In this document: piece by piece, positions 13,688 to 32,449 of the stretch
Numbering within the stretch: position 1 is the stretch's first letter
Layout of the letters: each line of letters starts with the position of its first letter
Assembly (NCBI GenBank): GCA_024761205.1
Contig: JAMASS010000004.1
Location: forward strand, 434,001 to 498,000
Source: Limisphaerales bacterium
GTDB taxonomy: Bacteria > Verrucomicrobiota > Verrucomicrobiia > Limisphaerales > AAA164-E04
DNA length: 64,000 bases
Direction: 5' to 3'
The notes under the pieces: generated by a model
The model's input: only the letters and a program-made list of their open reading frames with translations
The model's database searches: none
Told to the model about the DNA's origin: nothing
Made by a program: the position numbers and the translations under genes

Positions 13688-13764
<77 letters not shown>

Positions 13765-13995: not shown

Positions 13996-15330
13996 ATGGT
14001 TGAGCGCGGAACCGATTGGACGAATGCGTCGGTAGTCGAGTTCGCGGCTGGGGAGGATCCGGTCACGAAGATGGAGCAGAAGGCCCGCCAGGTGGTCTTG
14101 GATGCAGTGAGCCAAGGATGGCAAGGTCCTCCGTTCGACCCGATCGAGCTGGCGAACATCATGAATATTTCGGTGCGACCGAATGCGGCGCTAGCCGATG
14201 CGCGGGTGTTCTGGACTAACGACGGCTACGAGATCGAATACAACCCACACAGGCCTCGAGGCCGAGTGAACTTCTCGATCGCACACGAAATAGCGCACAC
14301 GTTTTTTCCGGATTGTGCGGAAGAGGTGAGGAACCGAAGCCGCGAGAAGAGGGACGAACCTAACTGGCAGATCGAAGTGCTCTGCAACGTAGGCGCGGCC
14401 GAACTCACAATGCCGGCCGGATCGTTCCCGTCGGAGGACGATGCGGTCGTGACGATCGAGGAGTTGATGCGCCTGCGAAAGAAGTTCCAGGTATCGGCAG
14501 AAGCTGTGCTGATCAGGTTGGTAAAGCTGGCGTCGTCGAGGATTGCCTGCTTTTCGGCGACGAGGTTCCCTAGGCAAGACAATACGACCGAGTACCGTAT
14601 CGATTACCGGATCGGGTCGTCACATTGGTCGGAATGGGCAATGCATCGTGCGCAGCGACGGGTCCGATCGGAAGTGCTGGACGAATGCGTGGCGATCGGG
14701 ACGACATCGAGGGGGAGCGAGACGTGGGAGCCCAACGACCTGGAAGTGCACGTGGAGGCGGTAGCTCTACCACCGCTCCCCGGCACGCCAAATCTGCGGA
14801 TTGCGGGGTTCATGCGACCGGCCTCGGAAGCGCCTGACCTTGGGGGGATTGACTACCGGCAAGGTAACGCGGCGGTGTTCGTGGCAGATGCGAACGCGGC
14901 CATCATGCACATTGTCAACGATAAGGCGCGGCGTTGGGGACCCCAAGGATTCGCGCAGGCGCTGCGGCTTGAGCATCGGAGCGCCTACAATGACTACGCA
15001 TTGTGGAAGAAGAGTGAGAGCCCGGAAGCAACGTCCCTAGGTGCGGTTCACATGGTTGATGTGGGAAACGACAACAAGTTTATAGTGAGCTTGGTTGCGC
15101 AGAAGGGCTACGGGAGGTCACTTAGGCCGCGTATTCAGTACGGGGCGCTGGACATGGCGCTGCAGGACGCGCGCAGCAGGCTCGAGAAAGCGGATGTGCA
15201 AATGGTGCAGATGCCGAGAATCGGTACGGGCCAGGCAGGAGGGAACTGGCGGGTCATTGAGGGGCTGATCCGGGAGCGGTTGGCTTCAACGGGAATTGAT
15301 GTACGGGTGATTGAGTCGCCACCGCGATGA
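13996..15330 (+). CDS. ImmA/IrrE metalloprotease fused to a macro domain
   Basis: A 444-residue two-domain protein. The N-terminal half is an ImmA/IrrE (COG2856) zinc peptidase: NFSIAHEIAHTFFPD holds HEIAH at 97-101 and the third ligand is probably Glu136 in CNVGAAELTMP. ImmA proteases cleave phage repressors or antitoxin-like regulators. The C-terminal half, from about residue 285, is a macro domain of the ADP-ribose phosphatase/DarG type: HIVNDKARRWG at 305-315 is the adenine/ribose loop and MPRIGTGQAGGNW at 406-418 the diphosphate loop. Its stop overlaps the next gene's leader and the third gene encodes an ART-like protein, so a removal or sensing role for ADP-ribose is likely. No XRE partner is seen upstream. 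G-rich codon use differs from the host genes. Domain calls are firm, function is inference. Confidence 0.85.
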   Translation: MVERGTDWTNASVVEFAAGEDPVTKMEQKARQVVLDAVSQGWQGPPFDPIELANIMNISVRPNAALADARVFWTNDGYEIEYNPHRPRGRVNFSIAHEIAHTFFPDCAEEVRNRSREKRDEPNWQIEVLCNVGAAELTMPAGSFPSEDDAVVTIEELMRLRKKFQVSAEAVLIRLVKLASSRIACFSATRFPRQDNTTEYRIDYRIGSSHWSEWAMHRAQRRVRSEVLDECVAIGTTSRGSETWEPNDLEVHVEAVALPPLPGTPNLRIAGFMRPASEAPDLGGIDYRQGNAAVFVADANAAIMHIVNDKARRWGPQGFAQALRLEHRSAYNDYALWKKSESPEATSLGAVHMVDVGNDNKFIVSLVAQKGYGRSLRPRIQYGALDMALQDARSRLEKADVQMVQMPRIGTGQAGGNWRVIEGLIRERLASTGIDVRVIESPPR

Positions 15331-15346
15331 GCGCTGGAATGATCGA

Positions 15347-16957
15347 GTGACTGTTAAGCTAATCGTGATTAGCGGTGGGATGGCAAGCGGCAAGAGCGTT
15401 CTGGCGCAACGACTCAAGTCGGACTCCGACTGTCAAGTGATTAAGACGAGTGAAATTATCCAGCGTCACCAGTCACGGCGGGCCAAAGGAAATCGACGAT
15501 CGCTGCAGCGCAAGGGCAACGAGTTGGATCGCAATACGAACCATGGTTGGATAGCGGACGAAGTTGCAAAGAGTATCCGGCCCGGAAACGGCGATTCGCC
15601 AGTGGTGCTAGAAGGAGTTCGGAAGCCACAGCAAGTCGACATGATCCTGAACCGAATCGGCCATCGTTACGTCAGGCACGTGCATCTTTCGGTGGATCCG
15701 GCGACCCAGAAACAACGCTTCCAAGCGTCGAATCGAGCAATCAACGACGGTCTAGACTTCGAAGCCGCAGTCAAAGACCCGTCGGAGCGCGAAGTGGCGA
15801 AACTGGCGGAGAAGGCCGATATGGTCATCCAGACCGAGCGTCACACTGAGGCGGACGTGTTCTGCCGGGTCAGTGCAAGACTCAACCTGCAATCGCGATC
15901 TTCGGACCGGATCGTGGACATCCTCGTAGGTGGTCAGTACGGGAGTGAGGGTAAAGGAAATATCGCCGATTACTTGTCACCGGAGTACAAGATATTGATG
16001 AGAGTCGGCGGCCCCAATGCGGGACACAAGGTATATGAGGAACCGCCGTACACGCACATCTCCCTGCCCTGCGGGGCGCGCAGGGGAACGGAAGGACAGG
16101 AGCTCTTGATCGGGCCGGGCGCGGTGATTGAGCCTGTAAAGCTGCTGCAGGAGATACGGGATTGCGAGATAGAGCCGGAGCGGTTGACCTTGGACGAACA
16201 GGTCGTCGTGATAACTCCGGAGGATCGGGAGTGGGAGGAGAAGAATCTCAGGTCGGAGATTGGATCGACGGCGCAGGGAGTCGGGAAAGCGACGGCGCGC
16301 CGGGTGACAAACCGGTTCCGTGGCGACCGGGCGTGCAAGCTTGCAAGGGATCTGGGGCCGGAGTTTAGACCGTACTTGGGGTCGACGGCGGAACGTCTTG
16401 AGAAGGCGTATGCGCGTGGCGAGAAGATCCTGTTGGAGGGAACGCAAGGAACAGGTCTAAGCATGTTTCACGGCTTGTATCCGTCGGTGACCTCAAGGGA
16501 CACGACGGTGTCCGGATGTCTTTCGGAAGCAGGAATTGGACCGCGACGTGTGAATAGGATCGTACTGGTCTGCCGTACGTATCCGATTCGCGTCGGCGGA
16601 AATTCAGGCAATTTCTCGAAAAAGATCGACTGGAAGACGGTGGCGGAGCGGTCGGGGATTTCGTTGGAGGAACTCCATGGGCACGAAGTGGGCTCGGTAT
16701 CGGGGACACGGCGAAGAGTCGGCGAGTTCGACTGGGAGTTGCTCCGCCGTGCGTGCCACCTGAACTCTCCGACGGACATAGCGCTCACGTTCGTGGACTA
16801 TCTGCACCAAGGGAACCGAGAAGCTATCCGGTTTGATCAGCTAACTCCAAAGACGATCAAGTTCGTCGAGGATATCGAGATTGTCGCGGGGGTACCGTGT
16901 TCGCTGATTGGCAACCGTTTCGACTACAAATGCGTCATCGACCGGCGGAGGTGGTAA
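15347..16957 (+). CDS. P-loop kinase fused to a PurZ-like adenylosuccinate synthetase domain
   Basis: From GTG 15347 the protein has 536 residues (an earlier TTG at 15311 would add 12). Residues 1-180 are a P-loop kinase domain, Walker A GGMASGKS at 10-17, reminiscent of nucleoside-phosphate or dephospho-CoA kinases. From about 189 on it is an adenylosuccinate synthetase homologue of only about 350 residues, shorter than PurA (about 430) and close to phage PurZ. The signature reads GGQYGSEGKGN where PurA has QWGDEGKGK, so the catalytic Asp is Ser200 (codon 15944-15946), the substitution I recall for PurZ, which acts on dGMP to begin 2-aminoadenine synthesis. GGPNAGHK keeps the catalytic His227. 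The GTP-selecting TKLD of PurA is TFVD at 481-484, so the nucleotide cofactor may differ. Overlaps both neighbours closely; part of a three-gene cassette. Confidence 0.82.
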   Translation: MTVKLIVISGGMASGKSVLAQRLKSDSDCQVIKTSEIIQRHQSRRAKGNRRSLQRKGNELDRNTNHGWIADEVAKSIRPGNGDSPVVLEGVRKPQQVDMILNRIGHRYVRHVHLSVDPATQKQRFQASNRAINDGLDFEAAVKDPSEREVAKLAEKADMVIQTERHTEADVFCRVSARLNLQSRSSDRIVDILVGGQYGSEGKGNIADYLSPEYKILMRVGGPNAGHKVYEEPPYTHISLPCGARRGTEGQELLIGPGAVIEPVKLLQEIRDCEIEPERLTLDEQVVVITPEDREWEEKNLRSEIGSTAQGVGKATARRVTNRFRGDRACKLARDLGPEFRPYLGSTAERLEKAYARGEKILLEGTQGTGLSMFHGLYPSVTSRDTTVSGCLSEAGIGPRRVNRIVLVCRTYPIRVGGNSGNFSKKIDWKTVAERSGISLEELHGHEVGSVSGTRRRVGEFDWELLRRACHLNSPTDIALTFVDYLHQGNREAIRFDQLTPKTIKFVEDIEIVAGVPCSLIGNRFDYKCVIDRRRW

Positions 16958-17639: not shown

Positions 17640-18040
17640 CAAGGCGATAAGTCAACCTGCAAGGATCGTTGGAGACAGGTTCCAAGTGTCGGCATGATGC
17701 TGTACCAGAACGGCTTGTGCCATGAGTGGCTGGCCAGCTAGGCGCCGCTCGACCTGATCGTCACCCTGGACGGTGCTACCAGCGATATCTACTCGGCTTT
17801 CTTGGTCGAGGATGAAGGCACCACATCCACCTTCTGCGGACTCAAGCAGGTGTTCGCGGAGCATGACCTGCCCGGTGCGCTCTACACCGATCGTGGCAGC
17901 CACTACTTCCACACATCCGAAGCTGGCGGCAAGGTGGACAAGGGCGAACGTACGCAGGTGGGTCGCACCCTGCATCAGCTCAGCATCGAACACATCGCAG
18001 CCTACTCACCCGAAGCCCGTGGCCGCTTCGTCTGGAGCAC
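17640..18040 (+). pseudogene. ISNCY-type transposase/integrase-core relic
   Basis: Bases 17690-18035 translate to the middle of an ISNCY-family DDE transposase: a first catalytic Asp in DLIVTLDGATSDIYSAF, the second in LYTDRGSHYFHT, then GGKVDKGERTQVGR and IEHIAAYSPEARGRF. A TAG at 17739-17741 interrupts the frame just before the first motif, and the sequence ends before the catalytic Glu of the usual SERxFxTHQ segment. No N-terminal helix-turn-helix and no clear terminal inverted repeats remain. It is dead and probably marks an old insertion that helped build the island. Confidence 0.8.
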
Positions 18041-18047
18041 CGACTGC

Positions 18048-18114
18048 CATGTATGCTCATAGCATACATGTATCGAATGTCCTGGAAACCACCGTATGTC
18101 GACAGCATACGGTG
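18048..18114. repeat. Cluster of two near-perfect hairpins (GTATGC-type)
   Basis: First hairpin 18048-18070: arms CATGTATGCT and AGCATACATG, 10 bp, perfect, three-base loop. Second 18090-18114: arms CACCGTATG and CATACGGTG, 9 bp, loop TCGACAG. Both share the GTATG/CATAC core, and a further AGCATAC occurs near 18160. A third smaller hairpin (CCTTGG-GAT-CCAAGG) follows at 18126-18140. None has a T-run, so they are not simple terminators; they may be recombination or protein-binding sites left by a mobile element. Confidence 0.7.
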
Positions 18115-18140
18115 CGGCGCAAGTCCTTGGGATCCAAGGG

Positions 18141-18752
18141 ACCTGGCCGCGAGTCCGAGAGCATACACTCGGCCCAACACCTCTCAGGCAGTTTCTGGCG
18201 CTGCCTGCGCGGGAGACCGCACGACAAGCGCGCGCATGGCATTGAGACGTGGGGTGTGAGGGTAAAGCCGCTTTGCGGTCTGGAGGGCTAGCATCGTGCA
18301 GCGATTTTCGTGGATCAATCAGTGACGGCGACGTCGGCAGGCGGAAGCCGCCGCGGCGATTGAGCGGGCGGCAGTGCGGCGACGGGCGGCTGATGCAGTA
18401 TCGCCCGAGCCACTGCACCGGATCGTGACGCGCTGGAAGAAAACGGGCCGCGCTGTGTCTCGATTCCATTCATGCAGGAGTGTGTCATGGCCTATCGGGG
18501 CCCAGCGATCCCGTCTTCGAGACAGCGTTTACTGCTGCAATGAGACTGGTGCGCACTCAAGTGCCTGTGGCAACGACTGACAACTGGGCGACTGCAGGCC
18601 TATGAGATGTTCTTCCCCGGATTCCCAAGTTCCAAACGCATCATGCCGCATCATCCGTTATGTCCTTTGGAGATGGCGAACCTCAACGCATCAGAACCAT
18701 TTCTTACGAACTGCACTCCACAAGTGTCCATCCATTGGCTATACTGTCCGAC
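18141..18752. other. Non-coding stretch between hairpins and the first RM locus
   Basis: Several short open frames exist in all directions but none has a ribosome-binding site plus recognisable content. The segment 18290-18450 is Arg/Ala-rich in translation and may be decayed transposon sequence. A TATACT box at 18740-18745, eight bases before the RHH gene start, could be part of its promoter, although I cannot place a good -35. Confidence 0.35.
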
Positions 18753-18920
18753 ATGAAAGACACCGGGATACGCATCGGGGTCCAGCGTGATCTCCACGAG
18801 CGCTTCCAGCTTGTCTGTCAAGCTCAGGACAGGCCCGCAGATCAGGTGCTTCGAGAGTTCATGCAGACCTATGTCGACGAGCCTGAGGCGAGTTTCGTTC
18901 CCAAGGCGAAGGGCAGATGA
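18753..18920 (+). CDS. Small ribbon-helix-helix protein
   Basis: A 55-residue protein: MKDTGIRIGVQRDLHERF, then LVCQAQDRPADQVLREFMQTYV, the strand-helix-helix pattern of RHH/CopG-type regulators and antitoxins, and a basic C-terminus. I start at ATG 18753; the open frame runs back to 18660 without family similarity. Its stop is four bases before the hsdR1 start, so it may regulate the restriction locus. A similar small DNA-binding gene sits just before hsdS2 in the second locus. Confidence 0.72.
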   Translation: MKDTGIRIGVQRDLHERFQLVCQAQDRPADQVLREFMQTYVDEPEASFVPKAKGR

Positions 18921-18924
18921 ACCG

Positions 18925-21693
18925 ATGCCGAATGCCAATCGCACCCCCGAGCAAACAGCGAGGGAAATCATCGACGGCAAGCTGTCGGAAGCAGGCTGGC
19001 GGATTCAGGACACGGGAAAGATCAATTTCAGCGCCGGCCCTGGAATTGCCGTTCGTGAGTACCAGACGGCTATCGGCCCCGCGGACTATGTTCTCTTCAT
19101 CGGCAAAAAGCCCATGGGCGTTATTGAGGCCAAGCCGGAGAACTGGGGCCACAAGATCACGACGGTCGAGAAGCAATCCGGCGGTTACGCGACGGCCAAG
19201 CTGAAGTGGGTGCGGGATAACGATTCTCTGCCGTTCATCTACGAAAGCACGGGAGAACTCACCCGCTTCACCGACGAACGCGACCCCAGGCCCCGCTCAC
19301 GGGAGGTATTCAGCTTCCATCGGCCAGAGACGATGCAAGAGTGGCTCAGCAAGACGGTTACCCTTCGCACTCGGCTTCAGGATTTGCCAGCCCTGGATAC
19401 CACAGGGTTGCGAGCCTGCCAGATCAACGCTATCAGGAACCTGGAAGCGTCCTTCAAGGACGACCGCCCGCGCGCGCTCATTCAGATGGCAACCGGCTCG
19501 GGCAAGACCTACACTGCCATCACCGCGATCTACCGGCTGCTCAAACACGCCGGCGCCAAACGCATCCTGTTCCTGGTGGACACCAGGAATCTGGGCGAGC
19601 AGGCCGAGCAGGAGTTCATGGCCTATGTGCCCAGCGACGACAACCGCAAGTTCACGGAACTCTACAACGTCCAGCGCCTTCGATCGTCCTTTGTCGCCAA
19701 GGATAGCCAAGTCTGCATCAGCACCATCCAGCGGATGTATTCGCTCTTGAAGGATCAGGAGATGGACGAAGGCGCCGAGGAGATTCACCCGGCGGAGCAG
19801 GCGTTACGGAGGGAACCGATGCCCGTCGTCTACAGCGCCAAGGTTCCTCCCGAATTCTTCGACTTCATCATCATCGACGAATGCCACCGCTCCATCTACA
19901 ACCTCTGGCGCCAGGTTCTGGAGTATTTCGACGCCTGCCTGATCGGCCTGACCGCCACCCCGGACAACCGCACCTATGGGTTCTTCAAGAAGAATGTGGT
20001 CAGCGAGTACGTCCATGAGCAGGCCGTCGCCGACGGCGTCAACGTCGGCAACGAAATCTACGTCATCGACACGGAGAAGACCCACCATGGCGGCCAACTG
20101 AAAGCAGGCCAGCAGGTGGAAAAGCGCGAGCGTTTGACGCGCCGAAAACGCTGGGAAATCCAGGAAGAGCACGCTGACTACGCCGCCAGCCAACTCGACC
20201 GCTCCGTCGTCAACCCCGACCAGATTCGCACTGTCCTGCGCGCTTTCCGCGACAAGCTACCGGAGATATTTCCGGGCCGGGGCGAAGTGCCGAAAACGCT
20301 GATTTTCGCCAAGACCGACAGCCATGCCGACGACATCATCCAGACCGTGCGCGAGGAATTCGCCGAAGGCAACGAATTCTGCAAGAAGGTCACCTACAGG
20401 ATTCAGGAAGACCCCAAGTCCGTCCTCGCCCAGTTTCGCAACGACTACAATCCGCGCATCGCCGTGACCGTGGACATGATCGCCACCGGCACCGACGTCA
20501 AGCCGCTTGAGTGCCTGCTTTTCATGCGCGACGTGAAGAGCCGCAATTACTTTGAGCAGATGAAGGGCCGCGGCACGCGCACCCTCGACTATGACGACCT
20601 GAAGAAGGTCTCGCCGTCCGCCGCGACCGCCAAGACGCACTATGTGATCGTCGATGCCATCGGCGTCACCAAGTCGATCAAGACGGACACTCAACCGCTT
20701 ATCACCAAACCTTCGGCGTCGCTCAAGGATCTCGCCATGAGCGTGATGATGGGCGTTTGCGACGAGGACACGGTCAGTTCCCTGGCGGGCCGTCTCGCCC
20801 GGCTGAACCGGCAACTCGGCGACCGGGACCAGGAACGCATCAAGAAACAGGCCGGCGGCGTTGAACTCACCGACATCGTCGGCGATCTGTTGTCCGCCAT
20901 CGACCCGGACCGCATTGAGGCGAAAGCGCGGGAAATCGAGCCGGTACCCGACAACGATACCGAACCGTCCCCAGGCGCTCGCGGGAAAGCCCAGGAGCAG
21001 TTGGTCAACAGCGCCGCCGCCGTCTTCAACGGGGAACTGGTTGAACTGATCGATTCGATTCGCCGGGACAAGGAACAGACCATCGACCACGACGGCCTGG
21101 ACACCGTGCTTCGTGCCGAGTGGGCGGACGACGCGCAGGAAAACGCCCAGGCCACGGCGCAGTTATTCGAGCAATACCTGGAAGCCAACCGCGACGAGAT
21201 TGAGGCCCTGGCCATCTTCTACGATCAGCCGCACCGCCGCCGCGAACTGACCTTCGCCATGATCCAGGAGGTCTGCGACAGATTGAAGGGCGACCAGCCA
21301 AGCCTCGCCCCCTTACGAGTCTGGCAGGCCTACACCCTGCTTGACGGCTACAAGGGGCGGCAACCTGTATCTGAATTGACCGCGCTGATGGCGTTGGTCC
21401 GTCGCGTTTGCGGCCTTGATGCGACGATTGCGCCCTATGCGGAAACCGTGCGACGCAACTTCCAGAACTGGATCATGGCCCGCCACAGCGGCGCGGGGGA
21501 GAAGTTCAACCAAGAGCAGATGGACTGGCTGCACATGATCCGCGACCACATCATCACTTCCTTCCATCTGGAGCGAGACGATCTGGACATGGCCCCGTTC
21601 GACGGCAAAGGCGGCATGGGGCGGATGTATCAGCTATTCGGCGAACAGATGGATATGGTGATCGATGAGTTGAACGAGGCGTTGGCGGCGTAA
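18925..21693 (+). CDS. hsdR: Type I restriction enzyme, R (motor/nuclease) subunit
   Basis: A 922-residue HsdR of the EcoEI/EcoKI-like kind. The N-terminal PD-(D/E)xK nuclease is seen as GPADYVLFIGKKPMGVIEAK (Asp54, Glu68, Lys70). The SF2 motor follows: Walker A ATGSGKT at 189-195, DECH in FIIIDECHRSIYNLW, motif III GLTATPD, and motif VI near GRGTRT. The C-terminus carries the EcoEI-type helical domain. I start at ATG 18925; the frame is open upstream to 18787 through the RHH gene. HsdR translocates DNA and cuts far from the site when HsdM/HsdS meet unmethylated DNA. It appears intact, though its partner genes are separated from it by a toxin-antitoxin insert. Confidence 0.95.
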   Translation: MPNANRTPEQTAREIIDGKLSEAGWRIQDTGKINFSAGPGIAVREYQTAIGPADYVLFIGKKPMGVIEAKPENWGHKITTVEKQSGGYATAKLKWVRDNDSLPFIYESTGELTRFTDERDPRPRSREVFSFHRPETMQEWLSKTVTLRTRLQDLPALDTTGLRACQINAIRNLEASFKDDRPRALIQMATGSGKTYTAITAIYRLLKHAGAKRILFLVDTRNLGEQAEQEFMAYVPSDDNRKFTELYNVQRLRSSFVAKDSQVCISTIQRMYSLLKDQEMDEGAEEIHPAEQALRREPMPVVYSAKVPPEFFDFIIIDECHRSIYNLWRQVLEYFDACLIGLTATPDNRTYGFFKKNVVSEYVHEQAVADGVNVGNEIYVIDTEKTHHGGQLKAGQQVEKRERLTRRKRWEIQEEHADYAASQLDRSVVNPDQIRTVLRAFRDKLPEIFPGRGEVPKTLIFAKTDSHADDIIQTVREEFAEGNEFCKKVTYRIQEDPKSVLAQFRNDYNPRIAVTVDMIATGTDVKPLECLLFMRDVKSRNYFEQMKGRGTRTLDYDDLKKVSPSAATAKTHYVIVDAIGVTKSIKTDTQPLITKPSASLKDLAMSVMMGVCDEDTVSSLAGRLARLNRQLGDRDQERIKKQAGGVELTDIVGDLLSAIDPDRIEAKAREIEPVPDNDTEPSPGARGKAQEQLVNSAAAVFNGELVELIDSIRRDKEQTIDHDGLDTVLRAEWADDAQENAQATAQLFEQYLEANRDEIEALAIFYDQPHRRRELTFAMIQEVCDRLKGDQPSLAPLRVWQAYTLLDGYKGRQPVSELTALMALVRRVCGLDATIAPYAETVRRNFQNWIMARHSGAGEKFNQEQMDWLHMIRDHIITSFHLERDDLDMAPFDGKGGMGRMYQLFGEQMDMVIDELNEALAA

Positions 21694-22835: not shown

Positions 22836-22892
22836 AGCTTTTGGGGAACGGACAGTATGTTTGATGAATTGCATGAGGTGTTGGCAGCGTGA
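22836..22892 (+). pseudogene. Relic of an hsdR 3' end between the toxin and hsdS
   Basis: The sequence from CAGCTTTTGGGGAACGG onward matches the last 50 or so bases of hsdR at 21633-21693. The final frame translates to MFDELHEVLAA and a stop, against MVIDELNEALAA at the end of HsdR; about 25 of the last 33 bases are identical. Its TGA overlaps the GTG start of hsdS (GTGA at 22889-22892), so this is probably the original coupled hsdR-hsdS junction. Confidence 0.75.
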
Positions 22893-24442
22893 GCATGCAA
22901 GCCGAGGAGAAGCGACTTCCCAAAGGATGGCTTCATGCTCCGCTCGGGCAAACCATCCAGCCTCGCGGCGAAAAAGTATCCCCCTCTGAGCACCCTGATG
23001 ACAGGTTTATTGGCATGGACCATGTCGAGAGTCACTCGACAAAAATCTTGGGGTCTCTTCCAGCATCCTCCATGAAAAGCAGTGCAGCCCGTTTCCGCAG
23101 CGGGGATGTTCTTTACGGTAGGTTGCGGCCCTATCTAAACAAGGTAGCGCAACCGAATTTTGATGGTCTTGCTTCTGCCGAATTCATCGTGTTTCCAGAT
23201 ACGAAACTGATCTATAGCTGCTTCCTTAAACACCGATTGAACGCAGCCGATTTCGTCAGTTTCGCCAGCCACCTCAATGAAGGGGACCGCCCTCGTGTGA
23301 ACTTTGACCAGATCGGCGAGTTCATGATGCTAATCCCGCCTCTGCAAGAACAACACCGCATCGTCACCAAGATTGAGGAACTGTTTGCCGAGCTGGACAA
23401 GGGCGTGGAGAGCCTGAAGAAGGCCCGCGAACAACTCAAGGTCTACCGCCAAGCCGTGCTCAAACACGCTTTCGAAGGCAAACTCACCGCGCAATGGCGC
23501 GAAGAAAACAAGGACAAACTCGAAACGCCCGAGCAACTACTCGCCCGCATCAAGCAAGAGCGGGAGGCGCGCTACGAACAGCAGCTTGAGGAATGGAACG
23601 CCGAGGTTCGGGCCTGGGAGAAAAACGCGAAAATTGGCAGGAAGGCTACCAAACCATCCGGGTTCAAAATGCCAGTTCCAATTGCGCAGAGCGAATTGGC
23701 CAAACTCCCGGACATTCCATCGTCGTGGCAGTACGTCCGACTATCAGAAATCGCTCGAGTTGGCTCAGGAAAGTCAGTAAGCAGGTCACGCAAATTAGCC
23801 GATCCCATTGAGGTTCCCTATCTGAGGGTAGCCAATGTTCAGCGTGGCAAGCTTGATCTTTCGATGACCAAGTCCATGAAAATCGAGCGTTCTCAACTGG
23901 TCGGACTTGCGCTTCGACGTTGGGACGTTCTGTTTAACGAGGGAGGAGACCGTGACAAGCTTGGCAGAGGCTGGGTGTGGGAGTCGCAGATCGAGCCGTG
24001 CGTTACGCAAAACCACGTATTTCGTGCAAGCCCGTTTCTTGAGTCTTTCCAACACTCCAAGTGGATTTCGCACTGGGGCAACACCTTGGGCCAACTGTAC
24101 TTTGAAGCGCAGGGGAAACAGACGACAAACCTCGCATCAATCAATAAGACAGTACTCAGCAAGTTTCCTATCCCCTTGGCGCCGATTGCGGAACAAGAGG
24201 AGATTCTCCGAAGAGTCGAAAGCCAAACGGCGACTATCGATCACCTAGAACACAAGGTTGCGAAATCTCTTGAACAGATGAACGCCTTGCGACAATCAAT
24301 TTTAAAAAAAGCCTTCTCCGGCCAACTCGTCCCCCAAGACCCCAACGACGAACCAGCCTCCAAACTGCTTGAATGCATCAAGGCCGAAAAGGCCAACGAT
24401 AAGTCGCCACAAAGGAGCCGACGAGGCAAAACACCCGCATGA
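22889..24442 (+). CDS. hsdS: Type I restriction-modification, S (specificity) subunit
   Basis: A 517-residue HsdS with two target-recognition domains. TRD1 covers about residues 10-170; the central conserved coil is marked by PPLQEQHRIVTKIEELF and the helix from 170 to 250; TRD2 begins near LPDIPSSWQYVRLSEIARVGSG and the distal conserved region PIAEQEEILRRVESQ closes it. HsdS binds the two half-sites and positions two HsdM. Start is GTG 22889, coupled to an hsdR-like stop, or ATG 22895 two codons on. The stop overlaps the next gene (ATGA at 24439). Frame is intact, so the locus can be active with hsdM and hsdR. Confidence 0.94.
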   Translation: MSMQAEEKRLPKGWLHAPLGQTIQPRGEKVSPSEHPDDRFIGMDHVESHSTKILGSLPASSMKSSAARFRSGDVLYGRLRPYLNKVAQPNFDGLASAEFIVFPDTKLIYSCFLKHRLNAADFVSFASHLNEGDRPRVNFDQIGEFMMLIPPLQEQHRIVTKIEELFAELDKGVESLKKAREQLKVYRQAVLKHAFEGKLTAQWREENKDKLETPEQLLARIKQEREARYEQQLEEWNAEVRAWEKNAKIGRKATKPSGFKMPVPIAQSELAKLPDIPSSWQYVRLSEIARVGSGKSVSRSRKLADPIEVPYLRVANVQRGKLDLSMTKSMKIERSQLVGLALRRWDVLFNEGGDRDKLGRGWVWESQIEPCVTQNHVFRASPFLESFQHSKWISHWGNTLGQLYFEAQGKQTTNLASINKTVLSKFPIPLAPIAEQEEILRRVESQTATIDHLEHKVAKSLEQMNALRQSILKKAFSGQLVPQDPNDEPASKLLECIKAEKANDKSPQRSRRGKTPA

Positions 24443-25101
24443 CCATTAAACTCTCCATCGCTTTTGACAGCCTGTTCCGCCAACGTGCCGCTGAGATCGA
24501 GCGCACCGGGTATCCTGAGGTTCAAATCAATGTCGTTTGGTCTGCGCCCGGCGCTGAAAGCGAGCGGGTGATGGAGAACGAGTTCAAGGGGTTGCTGCCC
24601 TTCGTTCTTCACGATGCCATCAACCACATCGGAAGGATCTATCTCACGCAAACGGTCATCAAGACTGGGGGTACTCCCCGGGTGAGGCGATTCTGGAACT
24701 TTTCCATCGACGCGATCAAGGAAGCCCTGATTAACGCGATCTTTCATCAATCATATGAGGAGCCGACGCCGGTCGAGGTACAGGTCACTCGACGGGAAAT
24801 ATCGATCTTGAGCTTTCCCGGCCCCGACCCGTCCATCCGCATGGAAGACGTGCAGGCGGGACGCGCCGTCAGCCTCCCCCACCGAAACCACCGTATCGGG
24901 GAAATTCTCAAGGAACTCGACCTGGCCGAGGGCCGCTCAACAGGAATCCCGAAGATGCTGGAGGCTGTGCGAAAGAATGGTTCTCCCGTTCCGATCTTCG
25001 AAAGCGATGAACGCCGGACATGGTTTCTGGTCCGTCTCCCGGTGCATGAACAAACATGTCCCGGGCCGGGCGAGTCTGAAACTGTGGAAATCTCTACATG
25101 A
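24439..25101 (+). CDS. C-terminal fragment of a Schlafen/AlbA-type ATP-binding protein
   Basis: A 220-residue protein matching only the second half of the 'RecG-like / divergent AAA_4' proteins. It has a GHKL-type (HATPase_c_4) fold: the N-box in IKEALINAIFHQSYEE, SFPGPDPSI, and the G-box in LAEGRSTGIPKMLEA, ending YFLVRLPVHE-like. The N-terminal AlbA/Schlafen nuclease-like domain of full-length members is missing. Overlapping ATGA junctions on both sides (24439, 25098) tie it into the hsdS-hsdM message, which suggests it is translated and perhaps kept as an operon member, but it may equally be a remnant. Function unknown. Confidence 0.75.
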   Translation: MTIKLSIAFDSLFRQRAAEIERTGYPEVQINVVWSAPGAESERVMENEFKGLLPFVLHDAINHIGRIYLTQTVIKTGGTPRVRRFWNFSIDAIKEALINAIFHQSYEEPTPVEVQVTRREISILSFPGPDPSIRMEDVQAGRAVSLPHRNHRIGEILKELDLAEGRSTGIPKMLEAVRKNGSPVPIFESDERRTWFLVRLPVHEQTCPGPGESETVEIST

Positions 25102-26588
25102 ACACCGCCCCCATTGTTTCCAAAGTCTGGAGCTTCTGCACCACCCTGCGCGATGACGGGGTGAGCTATGGCGACTATCTGGAGCAGCTCACCTATCTGA
25201 TCTTCCTCAAGATGGCGGACGAATACGCCAAGCCGCCCTACAAGCGCGATGTCGGCATCCCCGCCGAATACGACTGGCAGAGCCTCAAGTCGAAGACCGG
25301 CGCGGACCTTGAAGCTCACTATGTCGCCCTGCTGCGCGAACTCGGCGGCAAGCGCGGCATGCTGGGCCAGATATTCACCAAGGCGCAGAACAAGATTCAG
25401 GATCCCGCGAAGTTGTACCGCCTCATCGACATGGTGGACGACACCGAATGGGTCACGATGGGCGCGGACATCAAGGGCGATATCTACGAGGGCCTGCTGG
25501 AAAAAAACGCCGAGGACACCAAATCCGGCGCCGGCCAGTACTTCACGCCACGCGCCCTCATCCGCGCCATGGTCGAATGTATCCGGCCCGAACCGGGCAA
25601 GCGCATCGCCGACCCGGCCTGTGGCACAGGCGGGTTCTTTCTGGCCGCCTACGACTTCATCACCAACCCGGACAACTTCAAGCTCGACAGAACCCAGAAG
25701 GCGTTCCTGAAGCACGAGGCGTTTCACGGCAACGAGATCGTCGCCAACACCCGGCGGCTGTGCCTGATGAACATGTTCCTGCACAACATCGGCGAGATCG
25801 ACGGCGGTGCGCCCATATCGCCGAATGATTCGCTCGTGGCCGATGCCGGCGAGCGCTTCGACTATGTGCTGGCGAACCCGCCCTTCGGCAAGAAAAGCTC
25901 CATGAGCTTCACCAATGAGGAGGGCGAACAGGAACGGGACGATCTGACCTACAACCGGCAGGACTTCTGGGCGACGACATCGAACAAGCAACTCAATTTC
26001 GTGCAGCACATCCGCACGATGCTCAAGACCACCGGCCGCGCCGCCGTGGTGGTGCCGGACAACGTGCTGTTCGAAGGCGGCGCCGGGGAGACCATCCGCA
26101 AAAAACTGCTCGACAACACGGACCTGCACACCATCCTGCGCCTGCCTACCGGCGTGTTCTACGCCCAGGGGGTCAAGGCCAACGTGATCTTCTTCGACAA
26201 CCACGAAGCCAGCCCGAACCCCTGGACGAAGCGGGTCTGGTACTACGACTATCGCACCAACATTCACCACACGCTGAAGAAGAAACCGATGCGCTTCGAG
26301 GACCTGGCGGATTTCGTCAAGTGCTACAACCCGCACAACCGCCACCAGCGCAAGCCCACCTGGGATGAGCAGGACGCGCCCGACGGCCGCTGGCGCAGCT
26401 ACAGCTACGAGGAACTTTGCGCCCGCGACAAAACCAGCCTCGACATCTTCTGGCTCAAGGACAAAAGCTTGACAGACCTGGATAACCTGCCAGAACCGGA
26501 TGAGCTGGCCGAGGAAATCATTGAAAATCTTGAAGCGGGTTTGAACAGCTTCCGCGAGGTGCTGGCGGGCTTGCGGCAGTCGGGGTAG
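25098..26588 (+). CDS. hsdM: Type I restriction-modification, M (adenine methyltransferase) subunit
   Basis: A 496-residue N6-adenine DNA methyltransferase. An N-terminal helical domain (about 1-140) is followed by the SAM motif I DPACGTGGF at 172-180 and catalytic motif IV NPPF at 260-263, with QYFTPRALIRAM just before motif I as in other HsdM. It modifies host sites and, with HsdS, forms the core of the restriction complex. Its position as the last gene, after hsdR and hsdS, is unusual; the common order is R-M-S or M-S-R. The start ATG overlaps the previous stop (ATGA). Intact. Confidence 0.95.
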   Translation: MNTAPIVSKVWSFCTTLRDDGVSYGDYLEQLTYLIFLKMADEYAKPPYKRDVGIPAEYDWQSLKSKTGADLEAHYVALLRELGGKRGMLGQIFTKAQNKIQDPAKLYRLIDMVDDTEWVTMGADIKGDIYEGLLEKNAEDTKSGAGQYFTPRALIRAMVECIRPEPGKRIADPACGTGGFFLAAYDFITNPDNFKLDRTQKAFLKHEAFHGNEIVANTRRLCLMNMFLHNIGEIDGGAPISPNDSLVADAGERFDYVLANPPFGKKSSMSFTNEEGEQERDDLTYNRQDFWATTSNKQLNFVQHIRTMLKTTGRAAVVVPDNVLFEGGAGETIRKKLLDNTDLHTILRLPTGVFYAQGVKANVIFFDNHEASPNPWTKRVWYYDYRTNIHHTLKKKPMRFEDLADFVKCYNPHNRHQRKPTWDEQDAPDGRWRSYSYEELCARDKTSLDIFWLKDKSLTDLDNLPEPDELAEEIIENLEAGLNSFREVLAGLRQSG

Positions 26589-26602: not shown

Positions 26603-29107
26603 CTACGTATCCGTGAGGCGTTTAAACGCGATAGAGCCCATTAGATCTGGAAACAACAGGTTGCGCTCGGAAAGTATATTTGTGAGCTCTGTGTGAACTG
26701 TTAGTGGAAGTGCTGACGAGTTAACGTCCTCTACAGCAGAAATCAATCTTTCGCTCAACTTTTTTAACTCTGACAAGTCGGCCAAAACCATCTCTGGTCC
26801 AGGGTTCGCCTGACTGGCAACAGGGAGATACGGCCCAACGAATACGGGCAAAATTTCCGTCGCGGTCGTGTTTTCCTTAACCCATTGGATATGATTTAGA
26901 AGTTGGCTAATATCTTTCTTCTTGTATTGCGATGTTTCTAACTTATCGGTCTTCAACTCCATGCAAACTGCAGTGACCGCCGTGTCTTTGCTAATCTCCC
27001 ACAATACGTCTGGCCCCGTACCAAGGTCATTATCAGGGCGGCTGGCGCGAAGTCCAAGATACTGGCCTAACGCCCTTACAGCTTCTTCCGTTTCTCGGGG
27101 CGTTCCACTGCCGTCAAGTGGAGCTAAATCTTTATATATACGGCTAGGTATATTCAAAGAACTATCTGGGGCTTCTGTCATCAACGTAGCGATCTCGTTC
27201 ACTTGATCCGAAACGACGTTGTTTGACTGGCCAACCTGTCTTGGTAATGGTGGGATATTATTCTGATTGGCATGAGCACATATGTACTGCCGATGCGCGG
27301 ACTTGTCGTCCCCAATCAGCGAATATGCTAGACCCAGCCATAGACTGTGCCATGCCCCGATGGAGGGGCTTAGTTTATAGGCTTTGTCTAAAGTACCCTC
27401 AAATGCTCGAATAGCGCCCTTATAGTCACGCTTCCAAATGCGCAGACCGAATTCTGACTCCGATTGCGCTAGCTCTGTGAGAACCTCGGAGTTCTTCGAC
27501 TCCAGTTCCGGTTCCGCTTCACGCATAAAGTTGCTATAGGTCTGAATCCAATTCTCGTCCCGATTAAGGCAAGCGTTGCAAGCATCGAGAACATCATCTA
27601 TGGTTTCTGAATTCTCCGCCACCTTTTGCCCAAGCTGAATCTGCTTCTGGAGGAAGGCTGGTAACGTCGAAAGATTTCTGGGAATAGTTAACCAATCGAT
27701 CAAACGTTTTCCAGTCAGTACTATCACCCCGTGATCGCTAAGACCCCGAGATATCCGTCCGAAACTCTGGACGATGCGAGAGGCAACCAGAGTCCGCAAT
27801 GTGTTGGAGAGATTCAACTTTTCCCATAAGAATCGCTCAAGCGGGCCGGTGCCTGTAGGTAAATCATCAATGATCATTATGCGACAAGTATCACCTGGCA
27901 AATCGATGCCGTCATATCTTGCGGCAAGGATAAGCTTTGACTTCTCTAAGTCTGTTCGAAATTCTTGAACAGCTTCGGTAACTTTGTCGGTGTCGGGTGG
28001 AGAAACAATACTGCCCCAGCGTTTTGCTCGCTCGTATCCTGGAACGAGGATCAGGGCCTTTTTGTCTTGGACAAGCTGAACAGCCGAATCAATACCTTCC
28101 AAATCTTTATCTAACCTTTTAGGAATAAGGATTAGACGTTCGCACTCACCTGCGGAGGTCGCAGGCGCGATCATATGACCTGGACTCCGACCAAACGTGC
28201 GCGCAAAGGCGTCCGGTGCAGCTAACGTTGCTGACAGGTAGATTCTGCGGACGTTTTGCTCGAAGTAATACAAGTAAGGTGTCGGAAGAAAGGCTGGGGT
28301 GATGGTCATCTCTGTGGCGGATATCAATACACAGCTAATGTCCACTCGATCTCGAAGGTACTCCCATGCAAACATCGTGTCGCGATGTTCGCCGAATTGC
28401 CCTGCGTGGAGGACACGCTGGAGTTCCCCCATATTTTTGCTAACTTCGAAAGGAGGCACTAGAAAAAATTTCCGGGAACTTCCGGACTCCAATTCACCGT
28501 AGCTCATCGCTTGCCCAATGCTCTGGTGATAAGGCCGAAACAACGCAATGATGCGCGAGTAAAGATCTGGAAACTGGTTTTTTGTAACATGAAGCGAGAA
28601 ATGATCTCGAAGAAGGTGCTCGGCAGCATGCGCATCATCAAAGATAACCGCTTTAGGTTCGGGTTCTCTACTTAGGAACCGACTCTTTCCATTGAACAAC
28701 GCTTGGTACGTGGTTACGCAGGCAGCTTCCCCGCGGTGAAATTTTTCGTTTGAAAAATCCCGCTGGAAGTACGTCGTCACATCTAGGCCATATCCCCGAG
28801 CCTTGTCCTCCGTCTGCTTGATGAGTTGTATCGAACTGCATGCATATAGAACTTGCGCTCTGGTCTCGTTCACAAGTGCCTGTGCGATCAGGAGCCCCAC
28901 GAGTGTCTTTCCGGCACCGGTGTTTAGTACTATTCCGATATCCTGCAATTTGCGGTTCGCATGCCATTCGCGCAAAGCATCGCCCTGAGCAAGCCACAGA
29001 TCGTTGATGTTTTTATCGGCAACGCTGAGCCCTCGAAATATCTCAAGCGGGTCTGTAGGTCTGCTGACTCGCTTTGCTGCTTGGATTTTTGTCAAATCGA
29101 GAGGCAT
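26603..29107 (-). CDS. Superfamily 2 helicase with C-terminal nuclease-like domain
   Basis: An 834-residue protein. Residues 40-500 hold an SF2 helicase: Q-region, Walker A NTGAGKT at 62-68, DDAH in AVIFDDAHAAEHLL, motif III IYLSATL, and a motif VI-like VQSFGRISRG. A helical middle part with TPR-like spacing (about 540-620) follows. Near the C-terminus, GPDVLWEISKDTAVTAVCMELK gives the D...ExK spacing of PD-(D/E)xK nucleases. It fits the style of stand-alone anti-phage helicase-nucleases, but I do not recognise a named system. The gene is convergent with hsdM (15 bases apart) and has lower GC and more A/T-ending codons than its neighbours, suggesting separate acquisition. Start is the ATG at 29105-29107 (complement). 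Confidence 0.75.
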   Translation of the reverse strand: MPLDLTKIQAAKRVSRPTDPLEIFRGLSVADKNINDLWLAQGDALREWHANRKLQDIGIVLNTGAGKTLVGLLIAQALVNETRAQVLYACSSIQLIKQTEDKARGYGLDVTTYFQRDFSNEKFHRGEAACVTTYQALFNGKSRFLSREPEPKAVIFDDAHAAEHLLRDHFSLHVTKNQFPDLYSRIIALFRPYHQSIGQAMSYGELESGSSRKFFLVPPFEVSKNMGELQRVLHAGQFGEHRDTMFAWEYLRDRVDISCVLISATEMTITPAFLPTPYLYYFEQNVRRIYLSATLAAPDAFARTFGRSPGHMIAPATSAGECERLILIPKRLDKDLEGIDSAVQLVQDKKALILVPGYERAKRWGSIVSPPDTDKVTEAVQEFRTDLEKSKLILAARYDGIDLPGDTCRIMIIDDLPTGTGPLERFLWEKLNLSNTLRTLVASRIVQSFGRISRGLSDHGVIVLTGKRLIDWLTIPRNLSTLPAFLQKQIQLGQKVAENSETIDDVLDACNACLNRDENWIQTYSNFMREAEPELESKNSEVLTELAQSESEFGLRIWKRDYKGAIRAFEGTLDKAYKLSPSIGAWHSLWLGLAYSLIGDDKSAHRQYICAHANQNNIPPLPRQVGQSNNVVSDQVNEIATLMTEAPDSSLNIPSRIYKDLAPLDGSGTPRETEEAVRALGQYLGLRASRPDNDLGTGPDVLWEISKDTAVTAVCMELKTDKLETSQYKKKDISQLLNHIQWVKENTTATEILPVFVGPYLPVASQANPGPEMVLADLSELKKLSERLISAVEDVNSSALPLTVHTELTNILSERNLLFPDLMGSIAFKRLTDT

Positions 29108-29283
29108 GATTTCACCATTACTTCTTGGACCATCTTTACTGGCTCTGCTACCAAGACGAACGTCTCACAATTTACCAAGGAGGAAAGCGCAATACGGATG
29201 TCACGTTTAGGTTAATACAAGTAGTTTAGCTGCAACTTCGGTTTTTGGATGCCGCCGTGAATTTAGCCACTACAGCATTGTTA

Positions 29284-29622
29284 TCAAGGTTCTTGCGGTC
29301 GGTACTGCCAATCACGCGTCTCAGCAAACTTCTTCAGGTATTTTGCTTTTTTCGTGATTTGGGTGTTGGAGTTGCCGTCGAATTTGATTACCGCGTGTTC
29401 GGGGAATCGATTAGGGTCGGGCTCAACGGGAAGGGCTTGGCTGCCACACTCGGCAACAGTCACGGCTAGGACTCCATGGGATGCCAGATTTAACCCGTTG
29501 ACATAATGCGTCCATGCATCTTGGGCTGTAATTTTGTCCCCATCATAGACAGACAGCCTCTTCTCGTCTTTTTTGGTGGGAGTGAACGCCTGGGATGTGA
29601 CGCGCCCCGCACGAATCCAGCT
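29284..29622 (-). pseudogene. Truncated paralogue of the 35,178-35,600 gene, fused into the hsdR2 3' end
   Basis: In the frame shifted by one from hsdR2 the minus strand reads SWIRAGRVTSQAFTPTKKDE, then LSVYDGDKITAQDAWTHY, VLAVTVAECGSQ, DPNRFPEHAVIKF and ends near TRDWQYRPQEP. Each block lines up with the third gene of the unknown operon (WIQDDVITSQAFTPTPKDS, LSVYDGDQITPEQSWNHY, VVAVAVSECKGAG, DPEPFPQHAVIDF, ERGWQYQSGEP). The N-terminal part is missing and replaced by hsdR2. The identity is moderate, so this came from a second, divergent copy of that operon. Confidence 0.85.
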
Positions 29623-32302
29623 CGGGCTCGGCGCGGTGGCCGCCGACGCCAGCCGGCACCGGCTCGATCTCGGCGTTCTCGTCGGGGAGCATGATCTTCT
29701 GCACCGCCTGCTTCTCGACGCGGTAGCTGTCCATGTCGATGGCGTCGAGAATCCCTTTCGACAGATCGTCCTCCTGAGGGGACGGCAGCTTGGGGATCAG
29801 GAAGTTGAGGAAGATCGAACGCATCTCCCAGGCGGCATTGGTCCAGGGCAGGACGCAGGAGAGGAAACTGTAGGTCCGCACGAATCCCTTGGCCTTGCCC
29901 TTGAAGTCAACCTGCTCGTCTTCATTCAGGTTGTCCCGGTAGGCAGCCACGCACATGTCGAGAATGGGGTCCAACTGGTCGCGCTCGTCGCCGTCGAGGT
30001 AGCGCCGCGCGAAGTCCTCGACCTGGCCGGGCGCATACACCTCGGCGCCGTCCAGGTCTGCTTGCAGATCGTGCAGCTTGTCGGGGTCGGTCTCGTCGGA
30101 GAGGATCGTCGCACGGTAGAAATCCGCGAACGCGTTGCGGATCGTCTCGGCGTCGTTCAGGAAGTCCAGCACGAAGACATCGTGCTTCTTCGGGTGCGCC
30201 CGATTGAGACGTGAGAGCGTCTGCACCGCCCGGATGCCGGACAGCGTCTTGTCCACGTACATCGTATGCAGCAGGGGTTCGTCGTAGCCGGTCTGGAACT
30301 TGTCGGCGCATACGAGGAACCGATAGGGGTGCTCCCGAATTTTCTCGGTGATCTGGTTGGCGGGGAACCCGTTGAGCGACGCCTCGCTGACCCTTGCACC
30401 GCCGTATTCGGGCTCGCCGGAGAAAGCGGCGATGGCCCGCCAAGGGCTCTTTCGGTCATCCAGGTAGTCCCGGATGGCGTGGAAATACTGAATCGCGCGA
30501 GCGACTCCGTTGGTGACCACCATCGCCCGCGCTTCGCCGCCGATCTTCTTCCGGGCGATGACCTGCTCGTGGAAGTGGTCCATCATGATCTCGGCCTTGA
30601 GGCGGATCGCGTGGTGGTGGCCCTCGACGAAGCGCCGCAGCTTCTTCCGCGCCTTGTTCGCATCGAACTCCGGGTCGTCCTCGATCGTCTTGGCGAGCTT
30701 GTAGTAGCTCGTCACCGGCGTGTAATGCGACAGCACGTCCAGAATGAAACCTTCCTGAATCGCCTGCTTCATGGTGTAGCTGTGGAACGCGCGATGCCTG
30801 ACAGCGCCGTCCGGCTGCGGGTCCGGTTCGCCGAATATCTCCAGCGTCCTGTTCTTGGGCGTGGCGGTGAACGCGAAGTAGCTGGCGTTGGGGAGCAGCT
30901 TGCGCGATTCCATCAGGTGGTTGATCTGGTCCTCGAAAGTCTCCTCTTCCTCTGCCGCACCAGCCTCGGAGAGCGCCTGCGCCATCGCCGCGCTGGTGCG
31001 CCCGCCCTGGCTGGAATGGGCCTCGTCGATGATGATGGCGAAGCGGCGCCCGCGCTGCTCATTGCCGATCTCGTCGAGGATGAAGGGGAACTTCTGCACC
31101 GTCGAGATGATGATCTTCTTGCCGGTCTCGATGAAGCGGCGCAGGTCGCCGGAACGTTCGGCATGACCCACGGTGGCCCCGATCCGGGCGTATTGCCTGA
31201 TGGTGTCGTTGATTTGGCGATCGAGGATGCGCCGGTCGGTGACCACGATGATGGAATCGAAGATCGGAGCGCCATCCCGGGCGAGCCCGATCAACTGGTG
31301 CGCCAGCCAGGCAATGGAGTTGCTCTTGCCGCTGCCGGCCGAGTGCTGAATCAGGTAGCGCCGTCCCGCACCATGCGCGGCAACGTCCGCCAGCGCCCGG
31401 CGCACCACGTCGAGCTGGTGATAGCGCGGCCAGATCTGTGTGCGATTCTTCCTGCCCGTTTTCTCGTCCTTCTCCTTCACCACCTGGACGTAGTTCTCAA
31501 GAATGTGGGTGAGGTTCTCTCGGGTCAGCACCTCGCGCCATAGATAGTCGGTCTTGATTCCGTCCGGGTTGGGCGGGTTGCCGGCGCCGTCATTCCAGCC
31601 GCGGTTGAAGGGCAGGAACCACGACTCCTTGCCCTTGAGGTTCGTGCAAAAGCGCGTTTCGGCCTCATCCACCGCGAAATGCGCAACGCAGCGGCCGAGT
31701 TCGAACAGCTTCTCGCGCGGATTGCGGTCCTTCCTGTATTGCTCGACCGCGTCGCCCACCGTCTGTTTGGTGAGATTGTTCTTGAGTTCGAAGGTGATGA
31801 CCGGCAGACCATTGATGAAAAGCGCGATGTCCAGCGCCCGCTGCGTCTCGTCGCGGCTGTAGCGAAGCTGCCGGGTAACGGTGAATCGGTTCTGGACGAA
31901 CCGTTCCTGGGCCTGAACATTTCCGGGCGACGGTGTGCCGTAGAACAGCTCCAGGCGATGGGCGCCGTGCTGGATGCCGTTCCGCAAGACGTCGACGGTG
32001 CCGCGCTTCGCGATCTGGCCCTGCAGCCGCGCCAGAAACTTGCGCCGGGTCGGACCGTCTTCGTTCAGCGCCAGCGACTCGGCCGCCTCGGGCTGGGTTG
32101 CGTGGAGGAAGGCGGCAAGCTGGCCGAGATCAACGCAGTACTCGCGGTCGTAATCGTATGGACTGCCGCCGTTCCAGCCGACGCCGCCATAAGCGGTGCG
32201 CGCCTCCGCCGTTCTCCCTTCCTCCAGAGGATCGCAGGGATGTCCGGCCAGCGCCGTGCAGATCAGCGCCTCAAGGCCCTTCTCGCTGGTGTCGGTGGTC
32301 AC
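29543..32302 (-). CDS. hsdR: Type I restriction enzyme R subunit, 3'-truncated
   Basis: A 919-residue HsdR of a different subtype from the first (EcoR124-like). Nuclease core: residues near FELKNNLTKQTVGDAVEQY with the Glu-Leu-Lys; SF2 motor: Walker A SAGSGKS around residue 325, DEAH in FAIIIDEAHSSQ, SATPKNRT-like motif III (AFTATPKNRT), and motif VI QTLSRLNR. The native C-terminal helical domain is missing: after EIEPVPAGVGGHRAEPELD, where other HsdR continue for about 100 residues, the frame runs into the relic of another gene for 23 residues and stops. Since the C-terminal domain docks HsdR on the methylase, and hsdS2 and hsdM2 are broken, this locus is probably dead. Lies last in a leftward operon. 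Confidence 0.88.
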   Translation of the reverse strand: MTTDTSEKGLEALICTALAGHPCDPLEEGRTAEARTAYGGVGWNGGSPYDYDREYCVDLGQLAAFLHATQPEAAESLALNEDGPTRRKFLARLQGQIAKRGTVDVLRNGIQHGAHRLELFYGTPSPGNVQAQERFVQNRFTVTRQLRYSRDETQRALDIALFINGLPVITFELKNNLTKQTVGDAVEQYRKDRNPREKLFELGRCVAHFAVDEAETRFCTNLKGKESWFLPFNRGWNDGAGNPPNPDGIKTDYLWREVLTRENLTHILENYVQVVKEKDEKTGRKNRTQIWPRYHQLDVVRRALADVAAHGAGRRYLIQHSAGSGKSNSIAWLAHQLIGLARDGAPIFDSIIVVTDRRILDRQINDTIRQYARIGATVGHAERSGDLRRFIETGKKIIISTVQKFPFILDEIGNEQRGRRFAIIIDEAHSSQGGRTSAAMAQALSEAGAAEEEETFEDQINHLMESRKLLPNASYFAFTATPKNRTLEIFGEPDPQPDGAVRHRAFHSYTMKQAIQEGFILDVLSHYTPVTSYYKLAKTIEDDPEFDANKARKKLRRFVEGHHHAIRLKAEIMMDHFHEQVIARKKIGGEARAMVVTNGVARAIQYFHAIRDYLDDRKSPWRAIAAFSGEPEYGGARVSEASLNGFPANQITEKIREHPYRFLVCADKFQTGYDEPLLHTMYVDKTLSGIRAVQTLSRLNRAHPKKHDVFVLDFLNDAETIRNAFADFYRATILSDETDPDKLHDLQADLDGAEVYAPGQVEDFARRYLDGDERDQLDPILDMCVAAYRDNLNEDEQVDFKGKAKGFVRTYSFLSCVLPWTNAAWEMRSIFLNFLIPKLPSPQEDDLSKGILDAIDMDSYRVEKQAVQKIMLPDENAEIEPVPAGVGGHRAEPELDSCGARHIPGVHSHQKRREEAVCL

Positions 32303-32358
32303 GCTATCTTTCGCCGTTCATCAAAGGAACTTCCCGGTTACGCGCCATCAGCCTATCG

Positions 32359-32396
32359 CTCGGTAGTACTGTTCCAGCTCGGTAGTACTGTTCCAG
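32359..32396. repeat. 19-bp perfect tandem repeat upstream of hsdR2
   Basis: The unit CTCGGTAGTACTGTTCCAG occurs twice in a row (32359-32377 and 32378-32396), between the DUF1828 gene and hsdR2. Both copies are identical, so it is either recent or selected. Confidence 0.9.
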
Positions 32397-32449
32397 CTTC
32401 AGTTCGACAGCGGGCCGGTGGTGGCCGTCTGCATCGCGGCGTGTGGGCG

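Follow-up and report, generated by a model that had tools for sequence, protein, structure and literature searches.

The analysis of a 64,000-nt stretch of Limisphaerales DNA (hereafter, the window) revealed an operon of three tightly packed genes, all on the + strand, in which the ATG of gene 3 overlaps the stop codon of gene 2 (TAATG). The operon and its surroundings comprise the following features:

13688..13764, + strand: tRNA-Met (CAT); the operon starts 231 bp downstream
13996..15330, + strand: gene 1, ImmA/CapP-like metallopeptidase (HEIAH at residues 97-101, E127) with a C-terminal macro domain; 444 aa
14842..15321, + strand: macro domain of gene 1, with a predicted SCO6735-type active site (H305, N308, Q369)
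15347..16957, + strand: gene 2, P-loop nucleotide kinase (residues ~1-175) joined to a PurZ-like adenylosuccinate synthetase (residues ~190-536); GTG start
15914..16954, + strand: PurZ-like domain of gene 2, GGQYGSEGKG with Ser200 at the PurA aspartate position; PIRVGGxSG like phage PurZ
16957..17619, + strand: gene 3, DUF7002 (PF22531), a predicted DarT-fold ART; invariant H15, R55, R161 and E189
18787..21693, + strand: type I restriction subunit R (EcoEI_R_C, SWI2/SNF2)
22889..24442, + strand: type I specificity subunit S, neighbour of the operon
25098..26588, + strand: type I methyltransferase M, neighbour of the operon

Between the operon and the type I system (17700-18400) lie remnants in which ORF 17802-18062, without a Pfam match, looks on visual inspection like a piece of an integrase core. 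A RecG C-terminal-like ATPase is encoded between hsdS and hsdM (24439-25101), and a DEAD/ResIII helicase, a second HsdR-like protein and a DUF1828/DUF6978 pair (26603-33705) carry the defence island to ~33.7 kb.

The first-pass annotation had proposed that gene 1 fuses an ImmA-type protease to an ADP-ribose-binding macro fold, and both parts of this proposal were borne out. The N-terminal half matches Peptidase_M78/ImmA above the Pfam cut-off (PF06114, E 2.8e-11), and the best PADLOC match of the gene is capP (6e-19). Residues H97, E98, H101 and E127 are invariant in ten of ten ImmA-macro proteins, preserving the HExxH zinc site together with a third ligand, which is assigned to E127 from the family pattern. 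The macro-fold peptides named in the annotation, HIVNDKARRWG (residues 305-315) and MPRIGTGQAGGNW (406-418), are in place within the last 160 residues of the protein, for which the family profile retrieves the solved macro domains 2afc (E 8e-44), 2fg1 (2e-43) and 5e3b (7.6e-40). The macro signal is real and far from a chance motif. The whole protein gives a good structural model, with a pLDDT of 85.

TARG1 uses Lys84 and Asp125, and DarG uses Lys80, whereas SCO6735, which strips thymidine-linked ADP-ribose off DNA, is devoid of these residues and requires Gln85, Asn27 and His24 (PMC9411070). Equivalents of TARG1 Lys84/Asp125 and DarG Lys80 were not found in the gene 1 macro domain; the DarG Lys80 position is occupied by Gln369, and the NCBIfam DarG model gives 16.8 bits, under its cut-off of 250. 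Because Gln369 and Asn308 are invariant in the ImmA-macro alignment (10/10) and His305 is kept in 9/10, the domain is assigned by its residues to the SCO6735 type and is plausibly an active hydrolase. As for the peptidase, PprI, a relative of the CapP/IrrE-like enzymes, is reported to sense ssDNA (PMC10904395). No repressor cleavable by the ImmA domain was seen in the operon.

Gene 3, previously read as ART-like, encodes a DUF7002 protein (PF22531, E 2.7e-51). This was the only family found in a Pfam scan taken to E 5, in which the DarT family PF14487 gave no match; PF14487 was likewise unmatched in genome G000. The kinship with DarT lies at the level of fold and remote profile. In the structural ranking of the AlphaFold model (pLDDT 92.6), the top seven matches are all DarT (Z 10.7 to 8.4), with DarT1 8baq (10.7), DarTG 7omu (9.9) and DarT 7omw (9.2) as the best, and the Foldseek E-value against DarT is ~1e-3. 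The profile-profile comparison of 20 DUF7002 with 9 DarT proteins gave P 1.5e-5 and a probability of 80%, against 0.3% or less for KptA (one sequence) and for unrelated controls. The profile alignment places R55 on the catalytic arginine and E189 on the ART glutamate, which in DarT1 are R52 and E152 (PMC11543638). H15, R55, R161 and E189 are kept in all 21 operon copies of DUF7002, and the stand-alone copies retain R55, R161 and E189 in 12/12 and H15 in 11/12. The modelled fold and the remote profile identify DUF7002 as a predicted DarT-fold ART with the catalytic Arg/Glu pair.

Another ART-fold activity has also been considered for DUF7002, namely a Tpt1/KptA-like 2'-phosphotransferase or a DUF952-like enzyme, with the macro domain clearing a small ADP-ribose by-product. 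Tpt1 structures and CC0527 (2o0q) do come next in the structural ranking, with Z of 7 to 8, but DarT structures score better and align over more residues. KptA/Tpt1 was rejected as the identity of gene 3 after the profile comparison, in which the single KptA sequence used reached a probability of 0.2%, and this explanation appears very improbable indeed. Two further copies of the family were observed. A stand-alone DUF7002 with ~63% identity to the window copy (L090:5828-6487) lies in the same genome as the operon L004, and a divergent DUF7002 gene that immediately follows the gene of a 1061-aa SIR2-domain protein (L105:2791-6776) may form with it a separate NAD-linked defence pair.

Gene 2 was overlooked in the first-pass annotation, though it lies between the other two. 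The Pfam scan identifies an AAA_33-type P-loop in its kinase part (5e-6) and an adenylosuccinate synthetase in the remainder (2e-54). An ordinary PurA with GDEGKG is encoded by a separate gene of the host genome, whereas the fused enzyme carries GSEGKG, and serine occupies the PurA aspartate position in every kinase-PurZ; archaeal PurA 5k7x retains the aspartate (GDEGKG). In phage PurZ the serine is present in 147 of 147 sequences, against 99% aspartate in PurA (PMC12884076). PurZ combines dGMP and aspartate into N6-succino-2-amino-dAMP, the precursor of 2-aminoadenine, Z (PMC8342488). PHROG 1211 (PurZ) is the sole PHROG match of gene 2 (5.5e-62). The curated NCBIfam profile amino_Aden_PurZ was not passed (179.8 bits, below the cut-off of 300), and archaeal PurA outscores phage PurZ over the PurZ domain (252 vs 166 bits). 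For these two reasons the synthetase is labelled PurZ-like, and its substrate is uncertain.

In the phylogenetic tree, the kinase-PurZ fusions form one clade (support 98/97) apart from free phage PurZ. This clade mixes bacterial operons with fusions belonging to phage replication modules, which adjoin PolA, primase or MazG genes and are mostly without DUF7002. Viral contigs with kinase-PurZ in such modules (UDG-PolA, primase, MazG) include L022:5998-12654, L034, L024 and L020, which are candidate Z-genome phages. HD dNMP-phosphatase/DatZ-like genes stand beside bacterial PurZ in varied orientation (L015:8368-8916, L107:3573-4169 and L017:5296-5898), an arrangement resembling the phage PurZ-DatZ pairing. 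Another bacterial PurZ module is found on a Sinorhizobium medicae plasmid (L017:5995-8057), where a short PurZ (GSEGKG) is followed by a DCD/dUTPase-like protein that has a probable membrane tail, adjoining an HD phosphohydrolase and a ThiF-like gene. Moreover, a deoxynucleoside kinase (dNK) gene lies directly 3' of the operon in a Verrucomicrobiota MAG (L012:9122-9805).

The operon might also be read as a phage-type Z-nucleotide cassette kept by bacteria, which would supply modified DNA for the element or the host, or serve anti-restriction, with DUF7002 as a further enzyme that processes bases or nucleotides and is no weapon. The phage modules that carry kinase-PurZ with PolA or MazG and lack DUF7002, the joint clade of viral and bacterial fusions, and the HD genes beside PurZ in L015, L017 and L107 argue for such a cassette. 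However, the window operon contains no DatZ, MazZ or DpoZ-like polymerase, and the macro and ImmA domains, together with the defence-island setting, speak for conflict and not for genome chemistry. We consider the cassette unlikely, though it deserves to be kept in mind. The phage Z-cluster is toxic in E. coli, where Z replaces 12.1% of plasmid and 3.9% of chromosomal A (PMC8342488); since Z thus enters host DNA with toxic effect, Z synthesis alone would be a credible weapon.

The partnership of genes 2 and 3 is strikingly constant. DUF7002 lies directly 3' of kinase-PurZ in all 20 bacterial loci found via PurZ (11/11 genome loci, 8/8 plasmid loci and the window). Where the spacing of the two genes was measured, in 17 loci, it ranges from -11 to +13 bp. 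The 11 further loci from the genome collection belong to Alpha- and Gammaproteobacteria MAGs, Planctomycetota, Acidobacteriota, Chloroflexota, Myxococcota/Deltaproteobacteria and Verrucomicrobiota; ImmA-macro is upstream in 10 of them (one truncated at a contig end). DUF7002 is present in each of the eight plasmid loci, which are mostly rhizobial, and ImmA-macro is absent from all eight. The kinase-PurZ/DUF7002 pair also occurs on three viral or mobile contigs, on two of them together with ImmA-macro. A census detected DUF7002 in ~1% of 1,476 genomes sampled from four phyla and, combined with a search of near relatives, added four paired loci, among which L091 has ImmA-macro and L101 has PurZ without the kinase part. 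Over all 27 paired kinase-PurZ/DUF7002 loci, ImmA-macro is present in 14 and absent in 13.

The divergence of PurZ and DUF7002 is correlated (Mantel r 0.50 over 17 loci, 0.68 without L013; p 2e-4). The operon of L013 has a DUF7002 from a distant clade, and for this reason the activity of DUF7002 seems to be needed in the operon. No DUF7002 was found by tblastn in the INPHARED phage collection, and 2.9 million viral contigs, searched with two peptide patterns, gave three matches only, two of these contigs also carrying the operon. In alphaproteobacterial loci, a conserved protein of 450-480 aa with no Pfam match is encoded convergently to kinase-PurZ/DUF7002 (L015:9132-10490, L106:4492-5940 and L107:6557-7927).

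This distribution bears on the central proposal of the first-pass annotation, a self-contained ART/macro toxin-antitoxin pair. An ART and a macro domain do share the operon, with gene 2 between them, and a DarTG-like arrangement could be envisaged in which DUF7002 acts as a toxin that modifies DNA, the macro domain counters it as antitoxin, ImmA serves as a switch under stress and PurZ is an accessory. The DarT fold of DUF7002 fits such a pair, as does the SCO6735-type macro domain, a type that in the literature is able to reverse DarT marks (PMC9411070); furthermore, ImmA-macro codiverges with the operon over 10 loci (r 0.93 with PurZ, 0.80 with DUF7002). Nevertheless, ImmA-macro is missing from about half of the loci, all the plasmid ones included, and DUF7002 stands alone, with neither PurZ nor macro domain, in many genomes, its constant partner being kinase-PurZ and not the macro domain. 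Terriglobus roseus and genome G941 have kinase-PurZ and DUF7002 without ImmA-macro, and no SCO6735-type macro domain, Pfam Macro or NADAR gene was detected genome-wide in either; several genomes with stand-alone DUF7002 also have no SCO6735-type macro domain. The toxin-antitoxin claim is not supported by these observations, and we hold it to be distinctly unlikely.

Since two genomes with the pair manage without one, the macro domain is no obligatory antitoxin. The idea of ImmA-macro as the core of the system was dropped once the macro-less genomes were found, and these genomes disfavour a constitutive toxin restrained solely by a macro partner. The activity of DUF7002 may instead require a trigger, or a substrate supplied by PurZ, and other, unrecognised ADP-ribose hydrolases are possible in the macro-less genomes.

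Across at least seven phyla, the operon genes are encountered in defence islands. Defence genes within ~9 kb comprise type I restriction-modification in the window, L005 and L021 (the last also with a serine recombinase), Wadjet JetA/JetC in L006, DISARM DrmD/DrmMI in L008, type IIG in L007, and HKD-SNF2 with AbiU in L011. These neighbours are listed as occurrences, without a matched control, and the argument from them to a defence role is circumstantial. The operons of L010 and L014 lie among housekeeping genes, which, together with two enzyme activities drawn from purine metabolism, might indicate a cluster for ordinary metabolism, such as nucleotide salvage, or for a specialised metabolite, such as a nucleoside product, and no conflict system at all. 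Against such a cluster stand the patchy and mobile spread, with the rarity of DUF7002 among the sampled genomes and its presence on plasmids and mobile elements, the nearest relatives in other phyla and the recurrent defence neighbours, and we regard it as quite improbable.

The closest kin of the window copy are in MAGs filed as Pseudomonadota (65-74% identity), yet among 58 relatives of the genome from which the window comes just 2 have DUF7002, and this combination points to horizontal transfer of the operon, binning errors in the MAGs being an alternative. tRNA genes are a common kind of integration site. A copy of the tRNA-Met integration site was considered as the right border of an element and rejected, as no second att-like copy of the tRNA-Met 3' end was found in the 64-kb window, which leaves the right end undefined.

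The sequence itself shows the operon and how far it is conserved, the folds, the catalytic residues that are kept and the defence genes nearby. On this basis, the best explanation is a mobile, defence-associated module with kinase-PurZ and DUF7002 as its core and ImmA-macro as an optional part for reversal or regulation, the activities being predicted from fold and residues. We put this reading at about even odds (a probability of roughly 0.5). According to the proposed mechanism, the PurZ domain would join aspartate to dGMP to form N6-succino-2-amino-dAMP, and the fused kinase would phosphorylate this product, or its derivative after host PurB, so that altered purine deoxynucleotides of the dZ type would accumulate. 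DUF7002, with NAD+ as donor, would attach ADP-ribose to a nucleotide or to a base within nucleic acid, and both proteins together would keep the invader or the infected cell from replicating. In operons that have it, the SCO6735-type macro domain would clear ADP-ribose from host targets, and the CapP/IrrE-like peptidase of gene 1 would sense DNA damage (ssDNA) and switch the system. A more specific version would make the ADP-ribosylation Z-dependent: 2-aminoadenine made upon infection would enter new, mainly invader DNA, DUF7002 would ADP-ribosylate the exocyclic 2-amino group, which Z has in common with guanine, and the macro domain would clear stray marks from host DNA. This version is speculative and, in our estimate, a long shot.

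In earlier descriptions, PurZ is an enzyme of phages (basally of archaea) whose role is to build Z-genomes. The kinase-fused PurZ-like enzyme is now seen to recur in mobile and defence loci of bacteria, tied to an uncharacterised DarT-fold family. Should the proposal be true, DUF7002 would gain a predicted activity, altered-base synthesis would be linked with ADP-ribosylation in bacterial immunity, and the operon would bear on whether bacteria deploy Z nucleotides against phages. In the literature searched, which covered few subscription full texts and preprints, no mention of DUF7002 was found, nor any connection between PurZ (or adenylosuccinate synthetase) and an ART or defence operon. With due caution, the system type appears to be new: its enzymes are of known kinds, and their pairing is undescribed as far as the searched literature and PADLOC (2023) show.

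Among known proteins and systems, SCO6735 of Streptomyces is the best structurally and mechanistically characterised relative of the gene 1 macro domain, which has equivalents of its His24, Asn27 and Gln85 (E 7.6e-40). However, SCO6735 is a free-standing protein, whereas the gene 1 domain is fused to an ImmA protease within an ART operon. The DNA-damage-sensing CapP/IrrE (PprI) peptidases share the ImmA-type HExxH domain with gene 1, in line with its capP match, but the window operon is without a CapH/DdrO-type repressor and its peptidase is fused to a macro domain. The phage Z-clusters (PurZ, DatZ, MazZ; S-2L, phiVC8) resemble gene 2 in the Asp-to-Ser change and the PIRVGGxSG motif; gene 2, in contrast, is bacterial, fused to a kinase and coupled to an ART, in an operon without MazZ, DatZ or Z-polymerase. 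Finally, DarTG1 and DarTG2 also combine a DarT-fold ART carrying the Arg/Glu pair with a macro domain in a defence setting. DUF7002, however, is a separate family, outside PF14487, and the gene 1 macro domain has no DarG catalytic Lys and lies C-terminal, behind ImmA, with no DarG C-terminal DarT-binding domain. The system type is set apart because it departs from DarTG in sequence family, active site, architecture and macro dependence, and because it is not a phage Z-cluster; if the macro domain proves essential, it would be placed among the DarTG-like conflict modules instead. In the window the hydrolase does accompany the ART, as in DarTG, but over the 27 loci the macro domain is dispensable and kinase-PurZ is the constant partner.
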